Assembly (NCBI GenBank): GCA_003166865.1
Contig: PMUP01000041.1
Coordinates: forward strand, 19,503-83,502
Length of the DNA stretch: 64,000 nucleotides
Source of the DNA: Bryobacterales bacterium
GTDB lineage: Bacteria > Acidobacteriota > Terriglobia > Bryobacterales > Bryobacteraceae
Reading direction: 5' to 3'
Shown: positions 48,106 to 60,062 of the stretch, one piece after another
How positions within the stretch are numbered: the stretch's first letter is position 1
Layout of the letters: the number at the start of each line of letters is the position of its first letter
The notes under the pieces: generated by a model
Told to the model about the DNA's origin: nothing
Database searches by the model: none
Seen by the model: the letters and a program-made list of their open reading frames with translations, nothing else
Position numbers and translations under genes: made by a program

Positions 48106-48150
48106 CTCCGTATCGCGCTAGGTTAGCACAACGATATGCTATGGAGAGCC

Positions 48151-50100
48151 ATGTCATCGAACGCCATCGACTCCGTTCTCACCGAACATCGCGTCTTCGA
48201 ACCGCCCGACGAGTTCCGCGCCGGGGCCCAAATCAAGAGCCGGGCCGAGTATGACCGCCTATACAAAGAAGCGCAGGAAGACCCGGAAAGTTTCTGGGCC
48301 AAGATCGCGCGGGAACTGCACTGGTTCAAGCCTTGGGACCGCGTGCTGGAATGGAAGCTGCCCTTTGCCAAGTGGTTCATCGGCGGCGAACTGAACATTT
48401 CCTATAACTGTCTGGACCGCCACGTCGCCACCTGGCGCAAGAACAAAGCCGCGATCCTATGGGAAGGCGAGCCGGGCGATTCGCGAACGCTCACCTATCA
48501 GCAATTGCTGCGCGAGGTTTCCAAGTGCGCGAACGTACTGAAGTCGCTGGGCGTCGCGAAAGGCGATCGCGTCGCGATCTACATGGGCATGGTTCCAGAG
48601 TTGCCCATCGCAATGCTGGCGTGCGCGCGGATCGGGGCGGCGCATACCGTGGTGTTCGGCGGATTCTCCGCCCAGGCACTGATCGATCGCATCAACGATT
48701 GCGGAGCATCGGCCGTGATCACGCAGGACGGAGCATTCCGGAGAGGCGCTGAAGTGAAGCTGAAGGAAGCCGTGGACCAGGCCCTGCCGCAGTGCTCCAC
48801 CGTGAAAAGCGTGTTGGTTTACCGGCGGACCGGAGGCAATGTCACCATGCAGCCGGGGCGCGACCACTGGTGGCACGAATTGATGGAGACGGCCTCCGAC
48901 GAGTGCCCGGCCGAATCCTTGGACGCGGAGCATCCTCTTTATCTGCTCTACACCTCCGGCACCACCGGAAAGCCCAAAGGCATTCTGCACACCACCGGCG
49001 GCTACTCGGTTGGCTCCTATATCACGGCCAAATGGATCTTCGATCTGCGCGATGAAGACACGTTCTGGTGTTCCGCCGATATCGGCTGGGTGACCGGCCA
49101 CACCTACGTCGTCTACGGCATGCTGCAGAACGCTGCGAGCGTGGTGATCTATGAAGGCGGCCCCACCTGGCCCGAGCCCGATCGATTCTGGCGAATCATC
49201 GACAAATACAAGGTCAGCATCTTCTACACCGCGCCTACTTCCATTCGCGCGTTCATGCGCTTGGGCGAGCAATGGCCTCGCAAGCACAGCCTCAGCTCGC
49301 TACGGCTGCTCGGAAGCGTTGGAGAGCCCATCAATCCGGAAGCCTGGATGTGGTATCGCGAAGTGATCGGCCACGGCCGCTGCCCAATCGTCGACACCTG
49401 GTGGCAAACCGAGACCGGCGCCGCGATGATCTCTCCGCTTCCGGGCGCCATCGCGACCAAGCCCGGTTCCGCGACTCTGCCTTTGCCGGGCGTCATCGCC
49501 GATGTGGTCACTCGCGAAGGCGTGACTGTGCCCCCAGGCGCCGGTGGATTTCTTGTAATCAAACAGCCGTGGCCATCCATGTTGCGGACTATTTATGGCG
49601 ATCCCGAGCGCTACAAGGAGCAATACTGGTCGCAGATCCCCGGCATGTACTTCGCCGGCGACGGCGCCCGCATCGATTCCGACGGCTATTTCTGGCTGAT
49701 GGGCCGCGTGGACGATGTTCTGAATGTGGCCGGGCACCGGCTGAGCACCATGGAGATCGAGTCGGCGCTGGTCGCGAATCCGATGGTGGCCGAAGCCGCG
49801 GTGGTGGGGCGTCCCGACGACGTGAAGGGCCAGGCGGTGTCCGCATTCGTCACGCTGAAGGCCGGACAAGCGCCTAGCGACGAAAACAAGAATCTATTGC
49901 GCCAGTGGGTGGCGAAAGAAATCGGCCCGATCGCCAAGCCCGACGATATTCGTTTCACGGATTCGCTTCCCAAGACGCGCAGCGGGAAAATCATGCGCCG
50001 CCTGCTTCGCGAGCTTGCAACCAACGGCGAGGTGAAGGGCGACACGACGACGCTGGAAGATTTCTCCGTGCTAGCCAAGCTGGCAACCGACGACGAATGA
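48151..50100 (+). CDS. acs: Acetyl-CoA synthetase
   Basis: The 649-residue enzyme activates acetate to acetyl-CoA through acetyl-AMP. The motifs include [14 protein letters not shown] (AMP-binding loop), [18 protein letters not shown] and the catalytic/acetylated Lys in [20 protein letters not shown] chose ATG at 48151, which gives the normal start; an in-frame ATG at 48136 adds five residues. The end is 59 bases from the convergent symporter gene, itself a member of the family that contains acetate permease. Confidence 0.96.
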
Positions 50101-50131: not shown

Positions 50132-50194
50132 CACGGTCAAGCAGTGCGGGCGACACGGTCAAGGAGTGCGAGCGACACGGTCAAAGATGCGCGA
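50132..50194. repeat. Short tandem repeat at the end of the symporter gene
   Basis: A unit starting CACGGTCAAGCAGTGCG is repeated: 50132-50153, 50154-50175 (22 bases each, two mismatches), then a shortened copy at 50176-50194 and a fragment. The stop codon of the symporter gene (50159-50161) lies inside the second copy, so its last codons come from the repeat. Confidence 0.8.
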
Positions 50195-51832
50195 CACGGC
50201 CAGTCCCACCAAAACCACCACCACGCAGCCGATCACGTTGTACCACAGGAATGAAATCCTGGTGAACAGGTTGGCGGCGAAAATGGCGGCTTCGCCGGCC
50301 AGCACGCCGAAGAACGCGCCGTTCGCGCCGACGCCGCGAAAGAAGAACGCTAGCACGAAGACGCCCAGCAGCCCGCCATAGAACAGCGATCCGATCACGT
50401 TCACGGCCTGGATCAACGCTCCAAAGTTCCTGCCATACTGCGCGAAGCCCATCGCAAAGCAGCCCCAAAAGACGGTGGCGAAACGGGAGGCGATGAGATA
50501 GTGCCGATCGGAAGCTTCGCGCTTGACGTGGCGACGGTAGATGTCGATCACCGTGACCGTGGCGAGCGAATTGATTTCACCGGAAGCGGAGGACATAGCC
50601 GCCGAGAAGATCACGGCGACAATCAGGCCGACCACTCCAGCGGGAAGATAGCGCGTCACAAACGACAGGAAGATGTAGTTGGTGTCGTCGAACTCTTTTC
50701 CGACCAAGTGCTCGCCCGCGGTGTGGGCTTCGTTGAGCTCTTGCTGCGCGGCGCGGTAGTGTTCGATGCTGGCTTGGCGGCGCGAGCGGTCTCCGGCGTG
50801 GTTGGCTTGGACGTATTCATCGGCCGCCTGCTTGCGATCGGCGTAGGCCAGCTGGTAGCGGCGCTCCACTGCCGGGAAGCGCGCGTCATGCTGAACGTTT
50901 TTCAGCTCCACGGGCTGAAACAATAGCGGCGGCCTTTCATAGATAAAGAAAACGTACACCATCGCGCCGATGAACAGAATGAAAAACTGCATCGGAATTT
51001 TAGCCACGGCGTTGAATAGCAGGCTGAGGCGGCTGGCAGCGATGGATTTTCCGGTCAGGTACCGCTGCACCTGCGACTGGTCACACCCAAAATAGGCCAG
51101 CGCCAGGAACATGCCGCCGATCAGGCCGCTCCAAATGTTGTAGCGATCGTCCCAGTCGAAGTTGAAGGTGACCGGGTTCAGCTTGCCGGCGGCTCCGGCG
51201 AGCGACACGGCGTCCGAGAAGGAGACACTGCTCGGAAGAAGATGGATCGCGAGCACCAGGGCCAGCACCAGCCCGCAGAGAATGAGCGACATTTGTTGAA
51301 CGTCGGCCCAAGTGACGGCTTTGATGCCGCCGAACGATATGTAGGTCATGACCAGGACGCCCATCACAATGGTGGTCGCGCGATCGGGCCAGCCCAGGAT
51401 AATGGAGAGCACGACGGCCGGCGCGTACAATGACAGGCCGGCGGCGAGACCGCGCTGAATCAAGAAAATCAAGCTCACCAGCGAGCGCGTCTTCGCGTCG
51501 AAGCGCTGCTCCAGATACTCGTAGGCGGTGTAGACGTTGGCGCGATGAAAAATCGGGACGGCGGTGGCGCATAGAATCACCATCGCGATCGGAAGCCCGA
51601 AATAAAACTGCACGAAGCGCATTCCGTCGGTGTAGCTTTGACCCGTGGTTGAGATGAAGGTGATGGCGCTGGCCTGGGTCGCCATAATCGAGAGCCCCAT
51701 CGCGTACCAGGGCATGGATTTGCCGGCCAGCAAGTACTTGTTCATGGTGCTGCTGCCACGTCCGCGATAGAGGCCATAGCTGACGATGAACACCAGCCAG
51801 CAAAACATCACCACCCAATCCAGTGGCCTCAT
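50159..51832 (-). CDS. Sodium:solute symporter (SSS family)
   Basis: The 557-residue protein has about 13-14 membrane spans of the SSS/LeuT-type fold. Signs are YLLAGKSMPWYAMGLSIMATQASAITFISTTGQSYTDGMRF, ITWADVQQ-like AVTWADVQQMSLI, GCDQSQVQRYLTGKS and VTRYLPAGVVGLIVAVIFSAAMSSASGEINSLATV, all typical of sodium symporters for sugars, acids or vitamins. A soluble insert of about 80 residues, rich in Gln, Ala and Arg (AVERRYQLAYADRKQAADEY), lies between spans. The ATG at 51832 overlaps the stop of the small membrane protein. The substrate is open. Confidence 0.92.
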   Translation of the reverse strand: MRPLDWVVMFCWLVFIVSYGLYRGRGSSTMNKYLLAGKSMPWYAMGLSIMATQASAITFISTTGQSYTDGMRFVQFYFGLPIAMVILCATAVPIFHRANVYTAYEYLEQRFDAKTRSLVSLIFLIQRGLAAGLSLYAPAVVLSIILGWPDRATTIVMGVLVMTYISFGGIKAVTWADVQQMSLILCGLVLALVLAIHLLPSSVSFSDAVSLAGAAGKLNPVTFNFDWDDRYNIWSGLIGGMFLALAYFGCDQSQVQRYLTGKSIAASRLSLLFNAVAKIPMQFFILFIGAMVYVFFIYERPPLLFQPVELKNVQHDARFPAVERRYQLAYADRKQAADEYVQANHAGDRSRRQASIEHYRAAQQELNEAHTAGEHLVGKEFDDTNYIFLSFVTRYLPAGVVGLIVAVIFSAAMSSASGEINSLATVTVIDIYRRHVKREASDRHYLIASRFATVFWGCFAMGFAQYGRNFGALIQAVNVIGSLFYGGLLGVFVLAFFFRGVGANGAFFGVLAGEAAIFAANLFTRISFLWYNVIGCVVVVLVGLAVSRIFDRVARTP

Positions 51833-51999
51833 GGACGAACGGCTCGGCCAAAAATATACATCGCGAGAATGAGGAATGCGAGATAGCAAATGACCAGGAT
51901 GTAGATGCGGCGCCAGGACCCGAGGATGGGCGGCGGTTCGTCTTCCATGACGCGTGCGTGATCGGGGACATGGGGTTTGTGGCCGGGCGCGCCGCTCAC
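51829..51999 (-). CDS. Small single-span membrane protein between PIG-L and SSS genes
   Basis: GTG at 51999 overlaps the PIG-L stop (GTGA), and the frame ends in a TGA overlapping the symporter ATG at 51832 (ATGA), giving 56 residues. The N-terminal part is soluble with PHVPDHARVMEDEPPPILGSW; the rest is one membrane span (RIYILVICYLAFLILAMYIFG) with a short basic tail. An ATG at 51948 would give a 39-residue form. Resemblance to short proteins near SSS symporters suggests a small accessory subunit, but that is memory, not a search. Tight overlaps on both sides argue for real translation. Confidence 0.72.
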   Translation of the reverse strand: MSGAPGHKPHVPDHARVMEDEPPPILGSWRRIYILVICYLAFLILAMYIFGRAVRP

Positions 52000-54515
52000 A
52001 AGGTCTTCCCGGCGCTCAACAAATTCGCAAAGATTCGGAATGCGCCTGGAACGCCCGCCGGCAATTCGCGGAACCAGGAGAGCGCGGTGAACACGTAGGC
52101 GCCCTTGCCGTAACGCGTGTACAGCGTGCTGCCGGTTTGCGGTTTTTGCCCGGGGTCATGCGTCTCAAACAGCGGCTGGTAATGATCGTCCCATTTCGAG
52201 GCGAAGTAGAGGCCTCGCTCCTGAATCCATCCGTCGAAATCGCGCGCCGTAATCTCGTTCGGTTGGTGCAGCAGCGGGCTCGCGGGATTTGGAAACTGAA
52301 CGGGAGCTTCTTCCACGGTCACGCGTTCCGAGCCGGTGGTCAGCGGATATGGGCCAACATTCGCAAGCAGCGTCGTTCCGCCGAAAGGATTTTGGCCGTC
52401 AGCCACGTTGTACTGCACCACCACCGTGCCGCCGTTCTTGACGTAATCCATCAGCCGGTTTTGATTGGCGCGCAGATCCGGCCGGACATTGTACGCCCGG
52501 ACGCCGGTCACGATGGCGTCGAAACGGCCGAGATTGCCGCCAGCGAGCTCGTCCGCGCCCAGCAATATCACGTCCGCACCCAGTTGCTGCAGTGCTTGCG
52601 GCACTTCATCGCCCGCGCCCACCACGTAGCCAATGGTTTTCGGCAGCAGGCGGACATCGGCGCGCACCAGCTTGGCGGTGGCCGGAGGAAACAAAACCTG
52701 GGTAGGGATATGCGGGTAGTTGATGGTTTCGATCTCGGTGGAGACGGTTTGATCGCCCACCTGCGCGCTGGCTTGGAGAACGCCCTGCGCGTCACCAGCA
52801 GGCGGGGTGAGCTGAAACGAAAGCGCGCTTTGCTCACCGGCATCGACCAGCTGAAAATGTTCCGAATTCGCCGAGATTCGCCAGCCGGCGGGTATTTGTA
52901 TGCGAACCTGTCCTTCTGCTTTTGCGATGTTCGCCTTCACTTGCAACTCGGCCGTTCTCGCCGCTCCTTGTGGAAACAACATCGCCGCTTCGGACCATTG
53001 CAGCGCAATCGGAGGCTCAACTACTACCGGGCGAATCAGCTCGCCCTGCGCGCGCTCGATGTAGCGGTACTGGACGGGGCGAACCACTTCGACGTCCTCG
53101 GATTCGATCCGCAAGTGAAAATGCGCATTGAACAGCGGCGGATTCTCCGGGAGGCCCACTTCGAGCTGGTTCGGGACCGTGTACGTGTCGCCCTGCTTGG
53201 GCTCCACCAGCCAGTAGGGTTGCGACAACGGCTGATGCTCTCCTACCGTGGCTGTCAGCGTGAAGACCTGGGGCTCGTTGAACGGAAGCACCTCGCCGAA
53301 TTTGGCCTTGGTCGCAGCGGGTGCCGTGGCGGGCGCGATGCCTTCGATATCGATGGACTTCACCTGCACCGCCAGGTGATCGCGACTGAGGGCCGTCGCA
53401 TCGAATTTGAGTCCGCCGCCGGGCGTCACGGCGTACTTGTCCGCCGTCGCATCCAGCCACAAGCCGGAACAGAGCGCGATGGTGTCGCTCAGCTCTTTCG
53501 GCTTTCCATCCGGCAGCGGCTGGCGCAAGGACGCCATGGCTTTTTGCGCTTTGAGCAGCAGCGGCACCACTCGGTCTGGGTTCTCTGGATCGAAACTCCG
53601 GGCGGCCTCAGCCAAAACATTTCCGACCGCCGTTCCGCCGGGGACGCGATTCCAGGAGATGTCGATGCCGTCGAAAATGTCGTGCGTGGCAACGGGGCCG
53701 GCCTGCGTGACCAGGGAATCCTTGGCGGATCCTTTGCGCTCCGCCGCGCCCATCCCCTGGCTGCGGTGCAGGCTGCGGGACATGCCGGCAATTTCTGCAT
53801 AGGAATGGCCCAGGATGGGATCATAATCGCCGGGGTCGACGACGATGCGGTTGGGCATCTTCTCGACTTCTTCACGCTGCTCCTTGGTAAACGCGCCGGG
53901 ATTCCACATCAGACGCTTGGTCTGCCAGGGCTGGACCCATTGCAACTGCTCCGGGAATCTCTTGGGATCGGCGGCGACGGTGAACGCTTCCTTGCCGAGA
54001 ATAGCGGAAACCTGGTGCTGGCCATGACCGTCACGCGGTGTGCCGCTGAACCGAACGATGATGACGTCGGGGCGGAAGCGGCGGATTACCCAAACCACGT
54101 CGCTCAGGATCTTCTCGCGGCCCCACTTCTCCAAGGTTTCCTCAGGAGTTTTGGTGAAGCCGAAGTCGATGGCGCGCGTGAAAAATTGCTCGGCGCCGTC
54201 GATGCGCCGCGCAGCCAGCAGCTCCTCGGTGCGGATGATGCCCAAAGCATCGCCTTGCTCGGCTCCAATTAGATTTTGTCCGCCTTCGCCGCGAGTGAGC
54301 GATAGATAGCCGGTCCGGACTTTGCGCCCGCGCGCCAAATAGGCGAGCAGCGCGGTGTTCTCATCGTCCGGATGCGCCGCGATCATCAGAACGCTCCCGA
54401 CCACGTTCAGGCGGTCGAGCGCGAGGCGGGCTTCGGCCGATCCCGATAGCTCGCGCTGCGCAAAGGCCGGGGTGAGACACGCACCAATGAGAACGGCTAG
54501 GATAGACGTGCGCAC
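51996..54515 (-). CDS. Large secreted PIG-L family (LmbE-like) deacetylase
   Basis: The protein is about 839 residues. It begins with a signal peptide (VRTSILAVLIGACLTPAFAQ). The PIG-L deacetylase domain follows, with the zinc motif MIAAHPDDENTALLAYLARG, GEGGQN and GHGQHQVSA. A long C-terminal part has beta-sandwich repeats (EGQVRIQIPAGWRISANSEHFQLV) and a final domain with VILLGADELAGGNLGRFDAIVTGVRAYNVRPDL ... GGTVVVQYNV, glutamine-amidotransferase-like. PIG-L enzymes remove acetyl groups from N-acetylglucosamine conjugates. Such large secreted forms are common in Acidobacteriota and Bacteroidota. GTG at 54515 or TTG at 54524 starts it; neither has a strong ribosome site. It is first in an operon with the small membrane protein and the SSS symporter. 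Confidence 0.88.
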   Translation of the reverse strand: MRTSILAVLIGACLTPAFAQRELSGSAEARLALDRLNVVGSVLMIAAHPDDENTALLAYLARGRKVRTGYLSLTRGEGGQNLIGAEQGDALGIIRTEELLAARRIDGAEQFFTRAIDFGFTKTPEETLEKWGREKILSDVVWVIRRFRPDVIIVRFSGTPRDGHGQHQVSAILGKEAFTVAADPKRFPEQLQWVQPWQTKRLMWNPGAFTKEQREEVEKMPNRIVVDPGDYDPILGHSYAEIAGMSRSLHRSQGMGAAERKGSAKDSLVTQAGPVATHDIFDGIDISWNRVPGGTAVGNVLAEAARSFDPENPDRVVPLLLKAQKAMASLRQPLPDGKPKELSDTIALCSGLWLDATADKYAVTPGGGLKFDATALSRDHLAVQVKSIDIEGIAPATAPAATKAKFGEVLPFNEPQVFTLTATVGEHQPLSQPYWLVEPKQGDTYTVPNQLEVGLPENPPLFNAHFHLRIESEDVEVVRPVQYRYIERAQGELIRPVVVEPPIALQWSEAAMLFPQGAARTAELQVKANIAKAEGQVRIQIPAGWRISANSEHFQLVDAGEQSALSFQLTPPAGDAQGVLQASAQVGDQTVSTEIETINYPHIPTQVLFPPATAKLVRADVRLLPKTIGYVVGAGDEVPQALQQLGADVILLGADELAGGNLGRFDAIVTGVRAYNVRPDLRANQNRLMDYVKNGGTVVVQYNVADGQNPFGGTTLLANVGPYPLTTGSERVTVEEAPVQFPNPASPLLHQPNEITARDFDGWIQERGLYFASKWDDHYQPLFETHDPGQKPQTGSTLYTRYGKGAYVFTALSWFRELPAGVPGAFRIFANLLSAGKTL

Positions 54516-54530
54516 AAGGTCCAAACGATT

Positions 54531-56693
54531 ATGATACGGGACGGGCAAGGGGGTTGGGGATTGGGGGATGGGGGTTCGCGGCGCGGCTCCGTCTACGTGT
54601 ACTTCTCGCTGCTGGCGGTGGTGGTTCTGTTCTTCCACAAGCCGCTGTTCAGCGCCGAATACACCTTCCCTTGGGATTTTCGCGGCGTGCAGGTTCCGCT
54701 CATCACGGTTCTTCGCGACCAGTTGAGCGCAAACCACTTCGCTCTTTGGAATCCGTACACGTATTGCGGCTATCCGATTTACGCGAACATCCAGGCCTGC
54801 TTCTTTCACCCACTGGTGTTCGCAAGCGCTTTGATCAGCAGCCGATTGTCGTTGTCCGACTGGCCGTCGAGCTTGCCGATCCTGCTGGAATGGGCCGTAG
54901 TTTTGCAAGTGTGGATCGGAGGTGTTGCGGCGTATTACTTGTTCCGCGAATTTGACCTGCGATCGGCCGCGGCGTGGACCGGCGCGGTAATGTTCGAAAC
55001 CGGCAGCTACTTTGCCTCGCGAGCCGAACACATCGATTCGATGATGGCCGCCGCTTGGATGCCGCTGGCTTGGCTGGCGGTCTGGAAGTTGCGGCACAAG
55101 CCGCGGGTGGATTGGCTGGCGGCGCTGGCGTTCGCGCTGGGCATGTCGGTGTGGGGTGGGTTTCCGCAAGCCACAGTCGCGGTGTTTGGATCAACCCTGG
55201 TGTTCGCGGCTCTTTTGGCGGTGCTGCGGCTGGCGCGCGCGAAAGTGATCGCCTGGACGTGTTGTGGTTGCGTACTGGGAGTTTTGCTGGCCGCGGTTCC
55301 ATTTATTCCCACCACCCAGCTCACCGAATTGAGCGTGGCGAAGTATCGCCTGGACTGGCTGGGCACCGGCGGTGGACTCTATTGGCAGAGCTTGGTCTCG
55401 CTAATCGCGCCGAACCACTACAACATATTCGATATCAGCCGTTTCACCGGCCCGGGCGATCCGACATTTCTTTATTTGTACAGCAGCATCGGAGGATTGC
55501 TGCTGGCGATTTTTGCGCTGCTGTTGGCAGTAGTGACTCGGCGCAATCGGATCACCCTACTGTTCGCCCTCCTGCTCGCGTTCGGGATGTTTTGGATGCT
55601 GGGCGATAAAACCATCGTGTGGCGAATCTTCTTTCCGCTCTTGCCGGAGCAGGTGCGCATCGGAATTCATCCCGAGTACACCTATTGCATCTTCAGCCTG
55701 GCCATCGCTGGGCTGGCCGCGATGGGCCTGGATTCCATCCGCATCAGCGATCTGGCTCGCTGGGCAATCGGCGCGATCATCGCCGTGGATCTGTTCCTGG
55801 TTGGATCGGGGCGCCCGATGAACAACTCATCCATCCAGCAGGATCCGGGCGTGACACGGGACACTTTCGACGGCAATGCTCATTGCCTCGACGAGATCCG
55901 ACGTTACGTTAATGAAAGGGTTCCGCCGTGGCGGATCGATACGGTTGACTCGAGCATGGAGTGGACCTACGGCGCGCCGATTCTCCAGGTGCCCAGCGCA
56001 AGCGGAATCAGTCCGCTGGCGCTCGAAAACACCATTCAACTACGCCTGTTTCTGCACGACGGGAACCGCTGGGGTTGGTATTATCCGCTGGAGAAGCTCG
56101 ATTCGCCGGTGCTGGATCTGATGAACGTGCGCTATGTGCTCACGCGCGCCGCGGATATTCCGCGCTTCGCCGCACTCACGAAATTCCGGCACGTCGCGAG
56201 CCTGCCCGGCACCGAGGTTTTCGAAAATACGGCCGTGTTGCCCCGCTTCTACTTCGTGCGCCGTGCCAGACAAGTGGCCTCGCTCGCTGAAGCACATGAG
56301 TTGATCGAGCAGCACAGGATCGACCTGCATGAAACCGCGATCACGGAACAGCCGATCGATCTTCCGTCCGCTGATGATTCAGGCTCTGCCGGTGACGTGA
56401 AGGTTGTCAAATATGAGCCATCCCGGATCGAACTGTCGCTCGAAGCTTCTCGCGCCTCTCTGCTGGTTCTTTCGGAGACCTATTATCCAGGATGGAAAGC
56501 ATGGATCGACGAACAGCCCACCGCCATCCACTCCGTGGATATTGCTTTGCGAGGCGTGGTTGTGCCGGCCGGCGCGCACCAGCTTCGCATGGAGTTCCGC
56601 CCGGCGATCCTGCCGGTCTCGCTGGGCATCTCTCTCGCAACCGCGATTCTATTGGCAATTTTCGCTCTTATGTACAGGGTCAAGGCCAGGTAG
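54531..56693 (+). CDS. YfhO-family multi-span membrane protein
   Basis: The 720-residue protein has about 12 membrane spans and a periplasmic C-terminal domain. Features fit the YfhO/GT-C group: LFSAEYTFPWDFRGVQVPLITVL early, FALWNPYTYCGYPIYANIQACFFHPL, then spans to residue about 420. The soluble end shows LLVLSETYYPGWKAWIDEQPTAIH and RGVVVPAGAHQLRMEFRPAIL. These proteins are thought to use lipid-linked sugars for glycosylation. The first 20 residues (IRDGQGGWGLGDGGSRRGS) come from a G-rich tract; the real start may be later, for example GTG at 54597. It diverges from the PIG-L operon. Confidence 0.85.
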   Translation: MIRDGQGGWGLGDGGSRRGSVYVYFSLLAVVVLFFHKPLFSAEYTFPWDFRGVQVPLITVLRDQLSANHFALWNPYTYCGYPIYANIQACFFHPLVFASALISSRLSLSDWPSSLPILLEWAVVLQVWIGGVAAYYLFREFDLRSAAAWTGAVMFETGSYFASRAEHIDSMMAAAWMPLAWLAVWKLRHKPRVDWLAALAFALGMSVWGGFPQATVAVFGSTLVFAALLAVLRLARAKVIAWTCCGCVLGVLLAAVPFIPTTQLTELSVAKYRLDWLGTGGGLYWQSLVSLIAPNHYNIFDISRFTGPGDPTFLYLYSSIGGLLLAIFALLLAVVTRRNRITLLFALLLAFGMFWMLGDKTIVWRIFFPLLPEQVRIGIHPEYTYCIFSLAIAGLAAMGLDSIRISDLARWAIGAIIAVDLFLVGSGRPMNNSSIQQDPGVTRDTFDGNAHCLDEIRRYVNERVPPWRIDTVDSSMEWTYGAPILQVPSASGISPLALENTIQLRLFLHDGNRWGWYYPLEKLDSPVLDLMNVRYVLTRAADIPRFAALTKFRHVASLPGTEVFENTAVLPRFYFVRRARQVASLAEAHELIEQHRIDLHETAITEQPIDLPSADDSGSAGDVKVVKYEPSRIELSLEASRASLLVLSETYYPGWKAWIDEQPTAIHSVDIALRGVVVPAGAHQLRMEFRPAILPVSLGISLATAILLAIFALMYRVKAR
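54543..54574 (+). repeat. G-quadruplex-forming G-tract at a divergent start
   Basis: Five runs of three to five G separated by loops of two or three bases (54543-54545, 54549-54553, 54556-54559, 54563-54567, 54570-54574) meet the pattern for a stable G-quadruplex on the + strand. It lies between the divergent PIG-L and YfhO genes, within or just before the first codons of the latter. Confidence 0.75.
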
Positions 56694-56759: not shown

Positions 56760-58181
56760 ATGTCAAATTCCCCGTCCACCACCCACATTCGCGTCCTCAT
56801 CGCCGACGATGAAGATAACCAGCGGGCTGGGCTCGCCAAGATGATCCAGTCTTGGGGATTTGTTGTGGAGACCGCGTTTGACGGCCAAGACGCATTGGAG
56901 AAGTTCACCCAGACGCCTCCACACGTTCTGATAACGGATCTGATGATGCCTCGCATGGATGGATTCGATCTATTAAAGCGCTTGGGATCGCTGAACATAC
57001 TACCGACCACCATTGTGCTGACTGCGTTCGGCAATATTGAGACCGCCGTGCAAACGATGCACGACCTGGGCGCGTTTTGGTTCTTGGAAAAGCCCATCCA
57101 GCCGAGCGCCTTGAAGGTTTTGCTGGAACGCGCTGCGACACAAAGCCGCATGGCGGAGGAAGCGGAACGCCTGCAGCGACAACTGCTCTATCAGGGCGTG
57201 CTGGTGGATTTGGTGGGAACGTGTGCCCCGATGCAGCAAGTGTTTTCTCTGATCCGCCAAGTGGCGCCGTCCAGGGCCGCGGTGCTGGTGACGGGCGAAA
57301 GCGGCACGGGCAAGGAATTGGTTGCGCGCGCGATCCATCATCTTAGTCCGCGGCGCGACGGTCCGTTTGTGGCGATCAATTGCGCCGCGATGCCCGAGAC
57401 GCTGATGGAGAGTGAGCTGTTCGGCCATGAAAAGGGAGCCTTCACCGGCGCGGTCGAGCGGCGGGCGGGCTGTTTCGAGCTGGCGCAGCACGGCACGTTA
57501 TTGCTGGACGAAATCGCCGAGATGCCCGTTGGCACGCAAGCCAAGCTGCTGCGAGTGCTGGAGGATTCCTGCGTCCGGCGGCTGGGCGGAAAAGCCGAGA
57601 TGGCCGTCGATGTGCGGGTGATCGCAGCCACCAACAAAGTGCTGGAGGAGGCCTTGCGCAAAGGCGAGCTGCGGGAAGACCTGTACTACCGCTTGAACGT
57701 TTTTCAGATCCCGCTGCCGCCGCTGCGCCAGCGCGAGGGTGACCTGCCGGTGCTCATCGAAGCGCTGCTCCAAATGCTCAATCGCAAGCACGAGACGCGG
57801 GTGGTGGACGTCAATGCCGAAGTACGAGAGCAGCTCAAGCGCTATTCCTGGCCCGGAAACGTGCGGGAACTACGCAACGTACTGGAGCGCGCTGTCATTT
57901 TGGCCGGCGAAGGGACTGTTACCAAACACCATCTTCCGCGAGACTTTGGCGTGCCCGCGGGGGCGCGTCCGGTGCTGCAAGAAGTGGAACCGGACGTGGT
58001 GCGATTGCCGGTGGGCACCACGGTGGGAGAGGCTGAAAAGGCTCTCATCCAGGTGACGCTTCAGCACACCCGCAACAACAAGACCCGAGCGGCTGAAATT
58101 CTCGGCATCAGTTTGAAAACTCTTTTCAACAAGCTCAAGGAGTACGGCTCCGCCGAGGCGGAGGCTGGAACGGGTACCTAG
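56760..58181 (+). CDS. NtrC-family sigma-54-dependent response regulator
   Basis: The 473-residue protein has a receiver domain (residues about 10-125; phospho-acceptor Asp in VLITDLMMPRMDG, Lys in FLEKPIQPS). The AAA+ domain follows (about 150-385; Walker A GESGTGKE, GAFTGA sigma-54 contact loop, Walker B LLLDEIAEMP), then a Fis-type HTH (TRAAEILGISLKTLFNKLKEYG). It activates sigma-54 promoters. The start TTG/ATG region at 56760 follows a weak site. Its stop is directly followed by the ATG of the kinase gene, which is its likely partner. Confidence 0.96.
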   Translation: MSNSPSTTHIRVLIADDEDNQRAGLAKMIQSWGFVVETAFDGQDALEKFTQTPPHVLITDLMMPRMDGFDLLKRLGSLNILPTTIVLTAFGNIETAVQTMHDLGAFWFLEKPIQPSALKVLLERAATQSRMAEEAERLQRQLLYQGVLVDLVGTCAPMQQVFSLIRQVAPSRAAVLVTGESGTGKELVARAIHHLSPRRDGPFVAINCAAMPETLMESELFGHEKGAFTGAVERRAGCFELAQHGTLLLDEIAEMPVGTQAKLLRVLEDSCVRRLGGKAEMAVDVRVIAATNKVLEEALRKGELREDLYYRLNVFQIPLPPLRQREGDLPVLIEALLQMLNRKHETRVVDVNAEVREQLKRYSWPGNVRELRNVLERAVILAGEGTVTKHHLPRDFGVPAGARPVLQEVEPDVVRLPVGTTVGEAEKALIQVTLQHTRNNKTRAAEILGISLKTLFNKLKEYGSAEAEAGTGT

Positions 58182-60062
58182 ATGTCCTTGAAATCCCGGC
58201 TTCGGCGTCCCATCGTAGCGCTTGTCGCGCTGGTAGTTGTTGTGATGTCGTTGCTGTACCTGTCGGATTTCACGCGGGTGTCCTTTGAAGGCGCGGCGGA
58301 TCGGGCCGATCTGGTGGCAGAGCAGTTCAAGCTGTACCTGGAGAATCATCTCAACCTGGAGATAGGCAGGCGCGGCCTCCAGCCCGCTTCGGAGACCGAC
58401 TGGGAGAACGCCTGGACGGCGATCATCCGCAACGGCCCGGATATCGCCGAAATGCTCAACCGTACGCTAGCGAAAGCGGATTTGGCGCTGGCCATTCTGG
58501 TGACCGATAAGCACGGCAATGTCTTGGCGGCATCGCCGGCGGCCACCCAGAGCAGCGTCCTGGCCGGCGCGGACGATATCCACGATATCCAACGCCGCTG
58601 GTGGGCTGTGAATCTGTGGGACCTGATGACCCGCCGCGAGAACTACCTGGTGACGCGGCCTATCGGGTTCAAGGGCAGTAAGCAAGTGCTGTTCAACGTC
58701 ACGATTGTGATCCGATCGGTTCTTTTGAAGCATGAAGTAGAGCCGGCCTTGAAGAGCCTAATGCTGGCCTTCGCGCTGGCGCTGTGCGTCGCGATCTTCT
58801 TGGGCGCCGTGCTGCCGAATTTGATCATCGATCCTTTGCAGCGTGTAAGCCAGAGCATCGATCTGATTCGTACGGGCCAGTTTGGCGCTGCCACCACTCC
58901 AGACCGGCGGGAAGCTCGCGAGTTCGCCGACGTCCACTCGAAACTTAGCCTTTTAGACGAGCAATACCGCGGCGCCAAGCAGGACGCCAGCGAGCTGCGC
59001 ACCAACATCGAGCAATTGCTCGAACGCCTGGAAGAAAGCGTGCTGCTTTTCGACAATACGGGCCGGCTTCTCATGGCCGGTGAGCCGGCCGAACGCATGC
59101 TCGGCAAAACGCGCGGTGCAATGGCCGGACGCGCGCTGGACCAGCTGTTTCCGCCGTCCTCCGCATTGGGCGAGATCATCGGAAACGCGGTTCGCAACCA
59201 AGAGTCCGTGGGAGAACGGATGGTCACCGTACCGCGCGCCGATGGAGTACCACAACATCTCACGGTGGGCGTGCAGATTCTGCGAAAAGGCTCCAGTGAA
59301 ACCATGGGGGCGCTGGTTACGCTGCGCGACGTGGAAAGCCGACGGCAGCTGGAGCGCCAGCTTGATTTTTCCACTCGGCTGGCCGCCATCAGCCGGCTCA
59401 CGGGAGGCGTGGCGCACGAGATCAAGAACCCACTCAACGCGATGGCCTTGCATCTGGAAGTGCTGAAGAACAAACTGGCCGGGCAGCAGCCGGAGATCGA
59501 TGTTATTGGCCGGGAAATCAAGCGTTTGGATACCGTGGTGAAGACGTTCTTGAACTTCAACCGGCCGCTGGACCTGAAGTACACACCCCTCGACTTCAAT
59601 GAACTGGTGCAACAGATCCTGGCGCTGGTCTCCGTCGAGGCCAGCGCGAAGCACGTCCAACTCGAAACCGCTCTTGAAGACAAGCTTTGGATCAACGGAG
59701 ACCCGGATCTGCTAAAACAGGCGATTCTCAACGTAATCAACAACGGCCTGGAAGCAATGCAGGCCGGCGGAACGCTAATCACCCGTACAACAAGGGATGG
59801 CGATGAGTGTTTACTGACGGTCCGCGACGCTGGTCCAGGAATCCCTTTGGAGATTCAGAACCGCGTGTTTCAACTGTACTTCACTACGAAAGAGAACGGC
59901 TCCGGAATCGGGCTCGCTACGACTTTTCGAGTGGTTCAACTGCACAATGGTACAATCGATTTTACCAGCGAGCCGGGTAAGGGCACGATGTTCCGGCTGC
60001 GCTTTCCAAGGATGATCGATCACGAACGTGAAGTGCTCGCTTCAGCCACGGCTACTTCCTAA
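58182..60062 (+). CDS. Sensor histidine kinase with PAS domain
   Basis: The 626-residue kinase begins with a membrane span (IVALVALVVVVMSLLYLSDF), has a periplasmic part up to residue about 185, a second span (LMLAFALALCVAIFLGAVLPNLI) and a HAMP-like linker. A PAS domain follows (ESVLLFDNTGRLLMAGEPAERMLGKTRG), then HisKA with the phospho-His in LTGGVAHEIKNPLNAMALHLEVL. The ATPase domain has an N box (NVINNGLEAMQAGG) and G boxes (RDAGPGIPLEIQNRVFQLYFTTKENGSGIGLA). It is translated right after the NtrC-type regulator and should phosphorylate it. The signal is unknown. Confidence 0.95.
   Translation: MSLKSRLRRPIVALVALVVVVMSLLYLSDFTRVSFEGAADRADLVAEQFKLYLENHLNLEIGRRGLQPASETDWENAWTAIIRNGPDIAEMLNRTLAKADLALAILVTDKHGNVLAASPAATQSSVLAGADDIHDIQRRWWAVNLWDLMTRRENYLVTRPIGFKGSKQVLFNVTIVIRSVLLKHEVEPALKSLMLAFALALCVAIFLGAVLPNLIIDPLQRVSQSIDLIRTGQFGAATTPDRREAREFADVHSKLSLLDEQYRGAKQDASELRTNIEQLLERLEESVLLFDNTGRLLMAGEPAERMLGKTRGAMAGRALDQLFPPSSALGEIIGNAVRNQESVGERMVTVPRADGVPQHLTVGVQILRKGSSETMGALVTLRDVESRRQLERQLDFSTRLAAISRLTGGVAHEIKNPLNAMALHLEVLKNKLAGQQPEIDVIGREIKRLDTVVKTFLNFNRPLDLKYTPLDFNELVQQILALVSVEASAKHVQLETALEDKLWINGDPDLLKQAILNVINNGLEAMQAGGTLITRTTRDGDECLLTVRDAGPGIPLEIQNRVFQLYFTTKENGSGIGLATTFRVVQLHNGTIDFTSEPGKGTMFRLRFPRMIDHEREVLASATATS

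Follow-up and report, generated by a model that had tools for sequence, protein, structure and literature searches.

A one-helix membrane protein family encoded beside sodium/solute symporters in several phyla, and a possible place for its gene module in bacillithiol salvage

The 64,000-nucleotide stretch of DNA analyzed here (the window) comes from contig PMUP01000041.1 of a Bryobacterales bacterium (Acidobacteriota). Its minus strand carries three overlapping genes, which encode a PIG-L/LmbE-like hydrolase, a 56-residue membrane protein, and a symporter of the sodium/solute symporter (SSS) family. The small frame, 56 codons at 51829-51999, is called SM throughout. The genes and their joints are arranged as follows.

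51996-54515, minus strand: PIG-L/LmbE-like hydrolase gene, GTG start, 839 amino acids
51996-51999, minus strand: GTGA overlap of the PIG-L stop (TGA) with the SM start, read from the sequence
51829-51999, minus strand: SM, GTG start, 56 amino acids
51829-51832, minus strand: ATGA overlap of the SM stop (TGA) with the symporter start, read from the sequence
50159-51832, minus strand: gene of the SSS-family Na+ symporter, ATG start, 557 amino acids

The first-pass annotation of this DNA had proposed both 4-base overlaps, and the sequence bears them out. Its span of 51829-54515 placed the overlaps correctly but cut off the symporter, which extends to 50159. A GGGAAG run lies ahead of the GTG of SM. 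Pfam searches assign the two large proteins to PF02585 (PIG-L, E 1.1e-16) and PF00474 (symporter, E 1.9e-44), and the same search with SM of the window matched no family.

Conservation of the small frame, a check set beforehand, was assessed through several samples, and the frame proved to be conserved. A tblastn search with SM against 61 genomes, comprising the window's own and 60 relatives, gave a match in 47. Around the matches outside the window's genome, 46 loci were fetched, in which SM precedes a symporter of the same kind. The overlap is exactly 4 bases in 40 of them, and the remaining six spacings are -1, -1, +8, +27, +331, and about 900 bases. A second sample was drawn from named genomes by symporter similarity alone (the symporter-first loci); of at least 590 stretches that matched, the best 80 were kept, and they cover Acidobacteriota, Bacteroidota, Ignavibacteria, Myxococcus xanthus, and metagenome-assembled genomes (MAGs) of Eisenbacteria and Calditrichia. 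Six stretches of DNA are common to the 80 and the 46 loci. SM accompanies the symporter in 77 of the 80 (76 by script and L187 by eye); L109, L137, and L140 hold no recognizable copy. The overlap of SM with the symporter is more than chance: it reads exactly NTGA in 65 of the 80 loci, and a small hydrophobic open reading frame (ORF) of this kind stood at only 3 of 578 other genes of the same loci, for which the start-codon rule was more generous than for the symporter. The earlier description of a symporter with a small companion protein is thereby upheld, in a set that is kept far beyond Acidobacteriota.

Loci fetched by SM alone give a comparable picture. The best 30 per phylum were taken and 102 were scored; 15 of these were set aside as coming from genomes chosen through the symporter. 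The 87 loci used are the best-ranked 29 each from Acidobacteriota, Bacteroidota, and Myxococcota. By script, among these best-ranked loci, a symporter follows SM in 78 of the 87 and a PIG-L gene precedes it in 73. Three of the nine non-adjacent cases are short loci without a symporter (L081, L100, and L101, the last being a bshC case). The other six fail the script rule (L095, L096, L099, L206, L215, and L217), and L095 does show the 4-base overlap.

SM goes with the symporter rather than with PIG-L, because PIG-L lies upstream in only 56 of the 80 symporter-first loci, against 77 with SM. PIG-L is downstream of the symporter in L152 and L157. Alternatively, SM could serve PIG-L as a membrane anchor or partner and not be a symporter subunit. 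L261 would suit this view: its SM is flanked by PIG-L and bshC, and the symporter gene comes about 3.6 kb later. Against this stand the 24 symporter loci without an upstream PIG-L, 23 of which still carry SM by script (the exception is L109), and we regard the anchor reading as very improbable. Among the 46 relatives' loci, PIG-L is upstream on the same strand in 22, and L057 has it downstream on the other strand. The joint between PIG-L and SM is also looser, with a 4-base overlap possible in 12 of 51 loci and a distance of at most 30 bases in 37 of 51. Where PIG-L is missing, the upstream neighbors look mutually unrelated (by eye, PhzF-like, sugar isomerase-like, ferritin-like, and tetratricopeptide repeat proteins).

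Profile searches extend the family to 107 of 396 Acidobacteriota genomes (E 0.01), 79 of 247 Bacteroidota, and 34 of 117 Myxococcota (both E 0.001), almost always as a single copy per genome. In alignment A3, which holds 75 SM members (L132, L180, and L187 are omitted), a Trp is present in 75 of 75 and a Tyr four residues on in 74. The scripts that picked most SM rows required a Trp followed four residues on by Tyr or His, so that the constancy of the Trp and the near-constancy of the Tyr in alignments A2 and A3 are partly built in. A separate scan used hydrophobicity and position only, and there W...[YFH] was present in all small ORFs whose end lay no more than 20 bases from a symporter start. 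Two consecutive prolines lie at most nine residues before the Trp in 63 of the 75 members. The structural model of the window's protein contains one membrane helix that starts at this Trp.

51841-51915, minus strand: predicted membrane helix of SM, residues 29-53, from conserved Trp29 (AlphaFold2, one helix, mean predicted local distance difference test score, pLDDT, 81.3)

Lys and Arg are commoner ahead of the helix than behind it in 65 of the 75 members, and the N-terminus is therefore predicted to face inside. Among the families shown to be matched by the 75 members (19 NCBIfam families and 25 of 39 Pfam families), none matches more than six members or passes E 0.001. SM is a real one-helix protein family without an existing name.

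It could still be argued that SM is a mere translated leader, which couples translation to the symporter while its peptide is inert. Such 4-base overlaps are characteristic of translationally coupled genes, and no clear Shine-Dalgarno-like run was seen in the sequence preceding the symporter ATG in the window. However, amino-acid similarity persists across phyla, and the frame is under purifying selection, with a pooled pN of 0.14 well below a pS of 0.55 in 11 pairs of relatives. The motif shared by every near-symporter ORF of the scan by hydrophobicity and position also speaks against an inert peptide, and the leader reading is highly improbable. SM very probably serves the SSS subfamily as an accessory membrane subunit, which would put it in contact with the symporter.

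Several loci depart from the common layout. A natural fusion of SM with the symporter was sought in the upstream frames of 13 loci, and none was found. A CutC-like gene (by eye) lies between SM and the symporter in L054/L115 and L130, where SM ends 725 (L130) or 916 (L115) bases upstream. L152 and L157, the loci with a downstream PIG-L, carry a variant SM in which EKPDEWWY replaces the PP...W stretch, at gaps of +12 and +6. Loci of the Pedobacter/Mucilaginibacter type (L162, L164, L169, L174, L177, L178, and L182) have a second small hydrophobic ORF of 37-61 amino acids as called. Its end lies 108-114 bases upstream of the symporter start, and it either overlaps SM or closely precedes it.

The symporter of the window is an SSS (SLC5) member by both profile and fold. 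It scores 152.6 bits against PF00474 (cut-off 22.8), and its model has a mean pLDDT of 91.7. The nearest solved folds by Foldseek are SiaT (5nva/5nv9, E 1.4e-22), SMCT1, NIS, and SGLT2-MAP17. Sequence alignment places S55 and T58 on Ser60 and Thr63 of SiaT, the residues that hold the sialic acid carboxylate (PMC5931594). R127, conserved in 51 of 51 homologs, aligns three residues off the position of SiaT Arg135, and K278 is likewise conserved in 51 of 51. Candidate Na2-site residues, placed by the same kind of alignment only, are A411 (51/51), S414 (47/51), and position 415, which is Ser or Thr in 39 of 51. The model also contains a helical hairpin between the core transmembrane helices (TM) 7 and 8, at the position of extracellular loop 4 (EL4).

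50687-50926, minus strand: predicted helical hairpin of the symporter, residues 303-382, with helices 319-346 and 349-377 (pLDDT 91-98 by blocks of ten)

In 51 of 51 homologs, 60-89 residues are inserted between TM7 and TM8. LeuT-fold topology puts EL4 on the periplasmic side, and the modeled hairpin is expected to be periplasmic. It could conceivably meet the secreted PIG-L protein, although this is a guess.

The PIG-L protein of the window consists of a signal peptide (by inspection), an N-terminal PIG-L domain, and a long C-terminal part. Two elements of its metal site were located, with residues counted from the codon at 54518.

54363-54374, minus strand: HPDD metal-binding/catalytic motif (H49, D51, and D52), invariant in 24 of 24 aligned proteins
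54015-54026, minus strand: HGQH, with H165 and the third metal ligand H168, both invariant in 24 of 24

R76 is invariant in the same 24 proteins. Signal peptides were also seen by inspection in the homologs, of which 54 of 56 carry HPDDE and HxxH; the exceptions are L137, which begins at a locus end, and L120. The LmbE-like motif is described as HXDD plus a His, with 97-148 residues between the second and third ligands (PMC4101496), and the window protein has 116 residues between D52 and H168. The first-pass annotation had called this protein a secreted deacetylase; a PIG-L/LmbE-type hydrolase with an intact metal motif and a signal peptide is what the sequence supports. It does not fall into any of the Mca, BshB1, MshB, or BshB2 equivalogs of NCBIfam, where its scores of 47.6, 29.5, 27.9, and 18.1 bits lie below the respective cut-offs of 277.15, 182.5, 224.35, and 195.25. 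Mca is the best match, far under its cut-off. A long PIG-L is encoded somewhere in 58 of the 61 genomes (46 of 47 with SM and 12 of 14 without), and since most relatives carry one, its presence alone says little.

Bacillithiol is a conjugate of cysteine, glucosamine, and malate (Cys-GlcN-malate), and genes for its synthesis are linked to the trio in Myxococcota and some Acidobacteriota. Of the 61 genomes of the first set, 60 carry BshC. In Myxococcota it was found in 35 of the 117 genomes, including all 34 that carry SM. Only one of the 83 Myxococcota without SM has it (G718; Fisher p 1e-28, ignoring relatedness). bshC lies 2.5-3.7 kb from SM on the same contig in 32 of the 34; in G732 and G739 the two are on different contigs. 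In M. xanthus (L154), bshC-bshB1-bshA and PIG-L-SM-SSS are divergent, and the called frames of bshC and PIG-L are separated by 79 bases. BshC and BshB1 of L154 score over their cut-offs. The locus ends within its BshA; the homologous protein of L271 passes the BshA cut-off. The myxococcotal genome G725 (L269) has the order bshC-bshA-PIG-L-SM-SSS, and the acidobacterial MAG G395 (L261) has PIG-L-SM-bshC-bshB1-bshA-SSS on one strand. L154, L261, and L271 encode BshB1 next to the trio, so their secreted PIG-L is not simply the biosynthetic deacetylase. Acidobacteriota show SM and bshC within 10 kb in 18 of the 49 genomes with both positions available; 15 of these belong to family f27, and f69, f11, and f76 contribute a single genome each. 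In the f27 loci read, PIG-L adjoins the symporter on the side away from SM, and the f76 case lies at a contig end with no trio in view. Across lineages, 14 of 14 genomes checked for BshC have it, 13 over the cut-off; these come from six lineages and were selected for having the module.

Among low-molecular-weight thiols, bacillithiol and its derivatives have been described as having the broadest distribution (PMC6282198). In the known route, Bca cleaves bacillithiol conjugates and mercapturates are exported (PMC4360819, PMC10950700), and for mycothiol the glucosaminyl-inositol half is recycled (PMC10950700). The gene linkage suggests a version of this chemistry in the periplasm. Bacillithiol, its disulfide, or its S-conjugates would reach the periplasm, where the PIG-L enzyme would cleave the Cys-GlcN amide. 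The symporter with SM would re-import the product, most likely glucosaminyl-malate, and BshC would then recharge it with cysteine. In this reading PIG-L, SM, and the symporter form one module, and PIG-L would feed the symporter with its substrate as an amidase or deacetylase of the LmbE type in the periplasm. We give this best explanation as a whole, a bacillithiol module of periplasmic cut, re-import, and recharge, about an even chance of being right. We infer the reaction of the enzyme, its substrate, the contact between SM and symporter, and the direction of transport from the evidence above. The trio would, by extension, play the same role where bshC is unlinked, the window's genome included.

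The identity of the imported compound is less sure than the bacillithiol role, and glucosaminyl-malate as the exact substrate falls on the doubtful side of even. The imported compound could instead be cysteine, a cysteine conjugate, or intact bacillithiol, since the linkage data are silent on which half enters. A ligand that is acidic and resembles a sugar would fit the aligned SiaT-type carboxylate residues as well as R127 and K278, a weak argument against these substrates; this variant appears quite unlikely. A more elaborate version of the favored salvage reading is a periplasmic bacillithiol cycle, in which the amidase docks on the EL4 hairpin, the Na+ symporter depends on an obligatory one-helix subunit, and diderms of several phyla recover glucosaminyl-malate (or cysteine). 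We put it forward tentatively, as somewhat more likely wrong than right.

A number of observations weigh against a bacillithiol role. Near bshC genes in Acidobacteriota come mostly from one family (15 of the 18 are f27), and the f27 loci read mostly have further genes separating bshC from the module. Co-occurrence in this phylum depends on the cut-off, with BshC in 100 of 107 SM genomes and 180 of 289 others at E 1e-3, and in 68 of 107 and 146 of 289 at E 1e-70. At E 1e-3, no BshC was found in seven Acidobacteriota genomes with SM (G079, G128, G245, G349, G354, G365, and G443), and G079 (L274) is 100% complete with PIG-L and symporter present. All 79 Bacteroidota genomes with SM have BshC; it is near-universal in that phylum (242 of 247), so that co-occurrence there is uninformative. 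bshC lay within 10 kb of SM in none of the 39 Bacteroidota genomes compared, out of the 79 that have SM. Many genomes encode BshC and lack SM. The genome of the window has bshC on contig C1 and the trio on C104, without linkage. As a separate observation, SM genomes of the Acidobacteriota family f29 (e.g., G136, G166, and G193) give only weak BshC matches (E about 1e-8 to 1e-13), which represent a divergent BshC or another protein.

The seven genomes without BshC and the unlinked Bacteroidota would fit a generic scavenging system, in which PIG-L deacetylates environmental N-acetylglucosamine compounds, the symporter imports an amino sugar or acetate, and the bacillithiol linkage is incidental. 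LmbE-like enzymes as a class act on substrates with an N-acetyl- or N-acyl-glucosamine core (PMC4101496), which also favors it. Against this explanation, Myxococcota and part of the Acidobacteriota have bshC within the trio or next to it, several times along with bshB1, bshA, or both. Moreover, no sugar-catabolic family is prominent by eye among the neighbor clusters shown, and the acetate-CoA ligase gene (acs) is not conserved nearby. Scavenging of this kind is therefore considered unlikely. The first-pass annotation had suggested an uptake route for amino sugars or acetate, and the linkage found points instead to bacillithiol synthesis, in Myxococcota and four Acidobacteriota families. Its acetate version was set aside: acs (48136-50100) is convergent with the trio in the window, and it had no match in the fetched flanks of the 46 relatives' loci. 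A cluster of other neighbors, c2 (DUF2911-like by eye), occurs near the symporter in 21 of the 80 symporter-first loci, on the opposite strand in 19.

On the other side of the trio, a YfhO-like membrane protein gene (54531-56693, plus strand) is divergent and starts 15 bases from the PIG-L start. It had no match within the fetched flanks of the 46 relatives' loci. Beyond it, the window carries an NtrC-type response regulator gene followed by a frame at 58182-60062 (together 56760-60062, plus strand). Both were matched near the trio in L035, L045, L048, and L055, and more weakly in L067 and L070; L054 matched the regulator alone. The response regulator is a possible candidate for control of the module.

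The superfamilies of the components are known, and the SM companion family and its bacillithiol link are apparently new. A search of the open-access literature found no description of the module, of SM, or of a link among PIG-L, SSS symporters, and bacillithiol, although 'PIG-L' may index poorly. Likewise, the open-access text available to search gave no account of bacillithiol salvage across the inner membrane. If the proposal is correct, the trio is a dedicated system for bacillithiol salvage and transport. The candidate module is present in the laboratory species M. xanthus and can hence be tested.

Known systems resemble the module in parts. Glutathione is broken down in the periplasm by gamma-glutamyl transpeptidase, so that a thiol is cut outside the inner membrane and its parts are re-imported. 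The proposed module is alike in outline, whereas its enzymes, thiol, and transporter are unrelated. Among thiol amidases, Bca/BshB2 and Mca share the LmbE-like metal motif with the PIG-L protein, which differs in being predicted as secreted, in its length of about 840 amino acids, and in scoring far under the Mca cut-off. Bca and Mca are described as working before mercapturates leave the cell (PMC4360819). SiaT (5nva) offers the closest fold to the symporter and has the TM1 Ser/Thr pair in common with it. Identity between the two is 25%, and the window protein has in addition the EL4 hairpin, the shifted Arg, and SM. Small membrane proteins encoded beside bacterial SSS symporters include DUF485/YjcH with ActP, DUF997/YhdT with PanF, and DUF4212 with VC_2705-type symporters. 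These have two helices, in contrast to the single helix modeled for SM, and none of the three is among the 19 NCBIfam families weakly matched by the 75 SM members or the 25 Pfam families shown of 39. The closest parallel in human transporters is MAP17 (PDZK1IP1), a small membrane subunit of the SLC5/SSS transporter SGLT2. Uptake by SGLT2 cannot do without MAP17, which binds TM13 (PMC10203128), whereas SM is only presumed to bind its symporter, and no sequence relation between the two small proteins is claimed. SM adds a companion family to the SSS transporters, the family to which human SGLT2 with its essential partner belongs.

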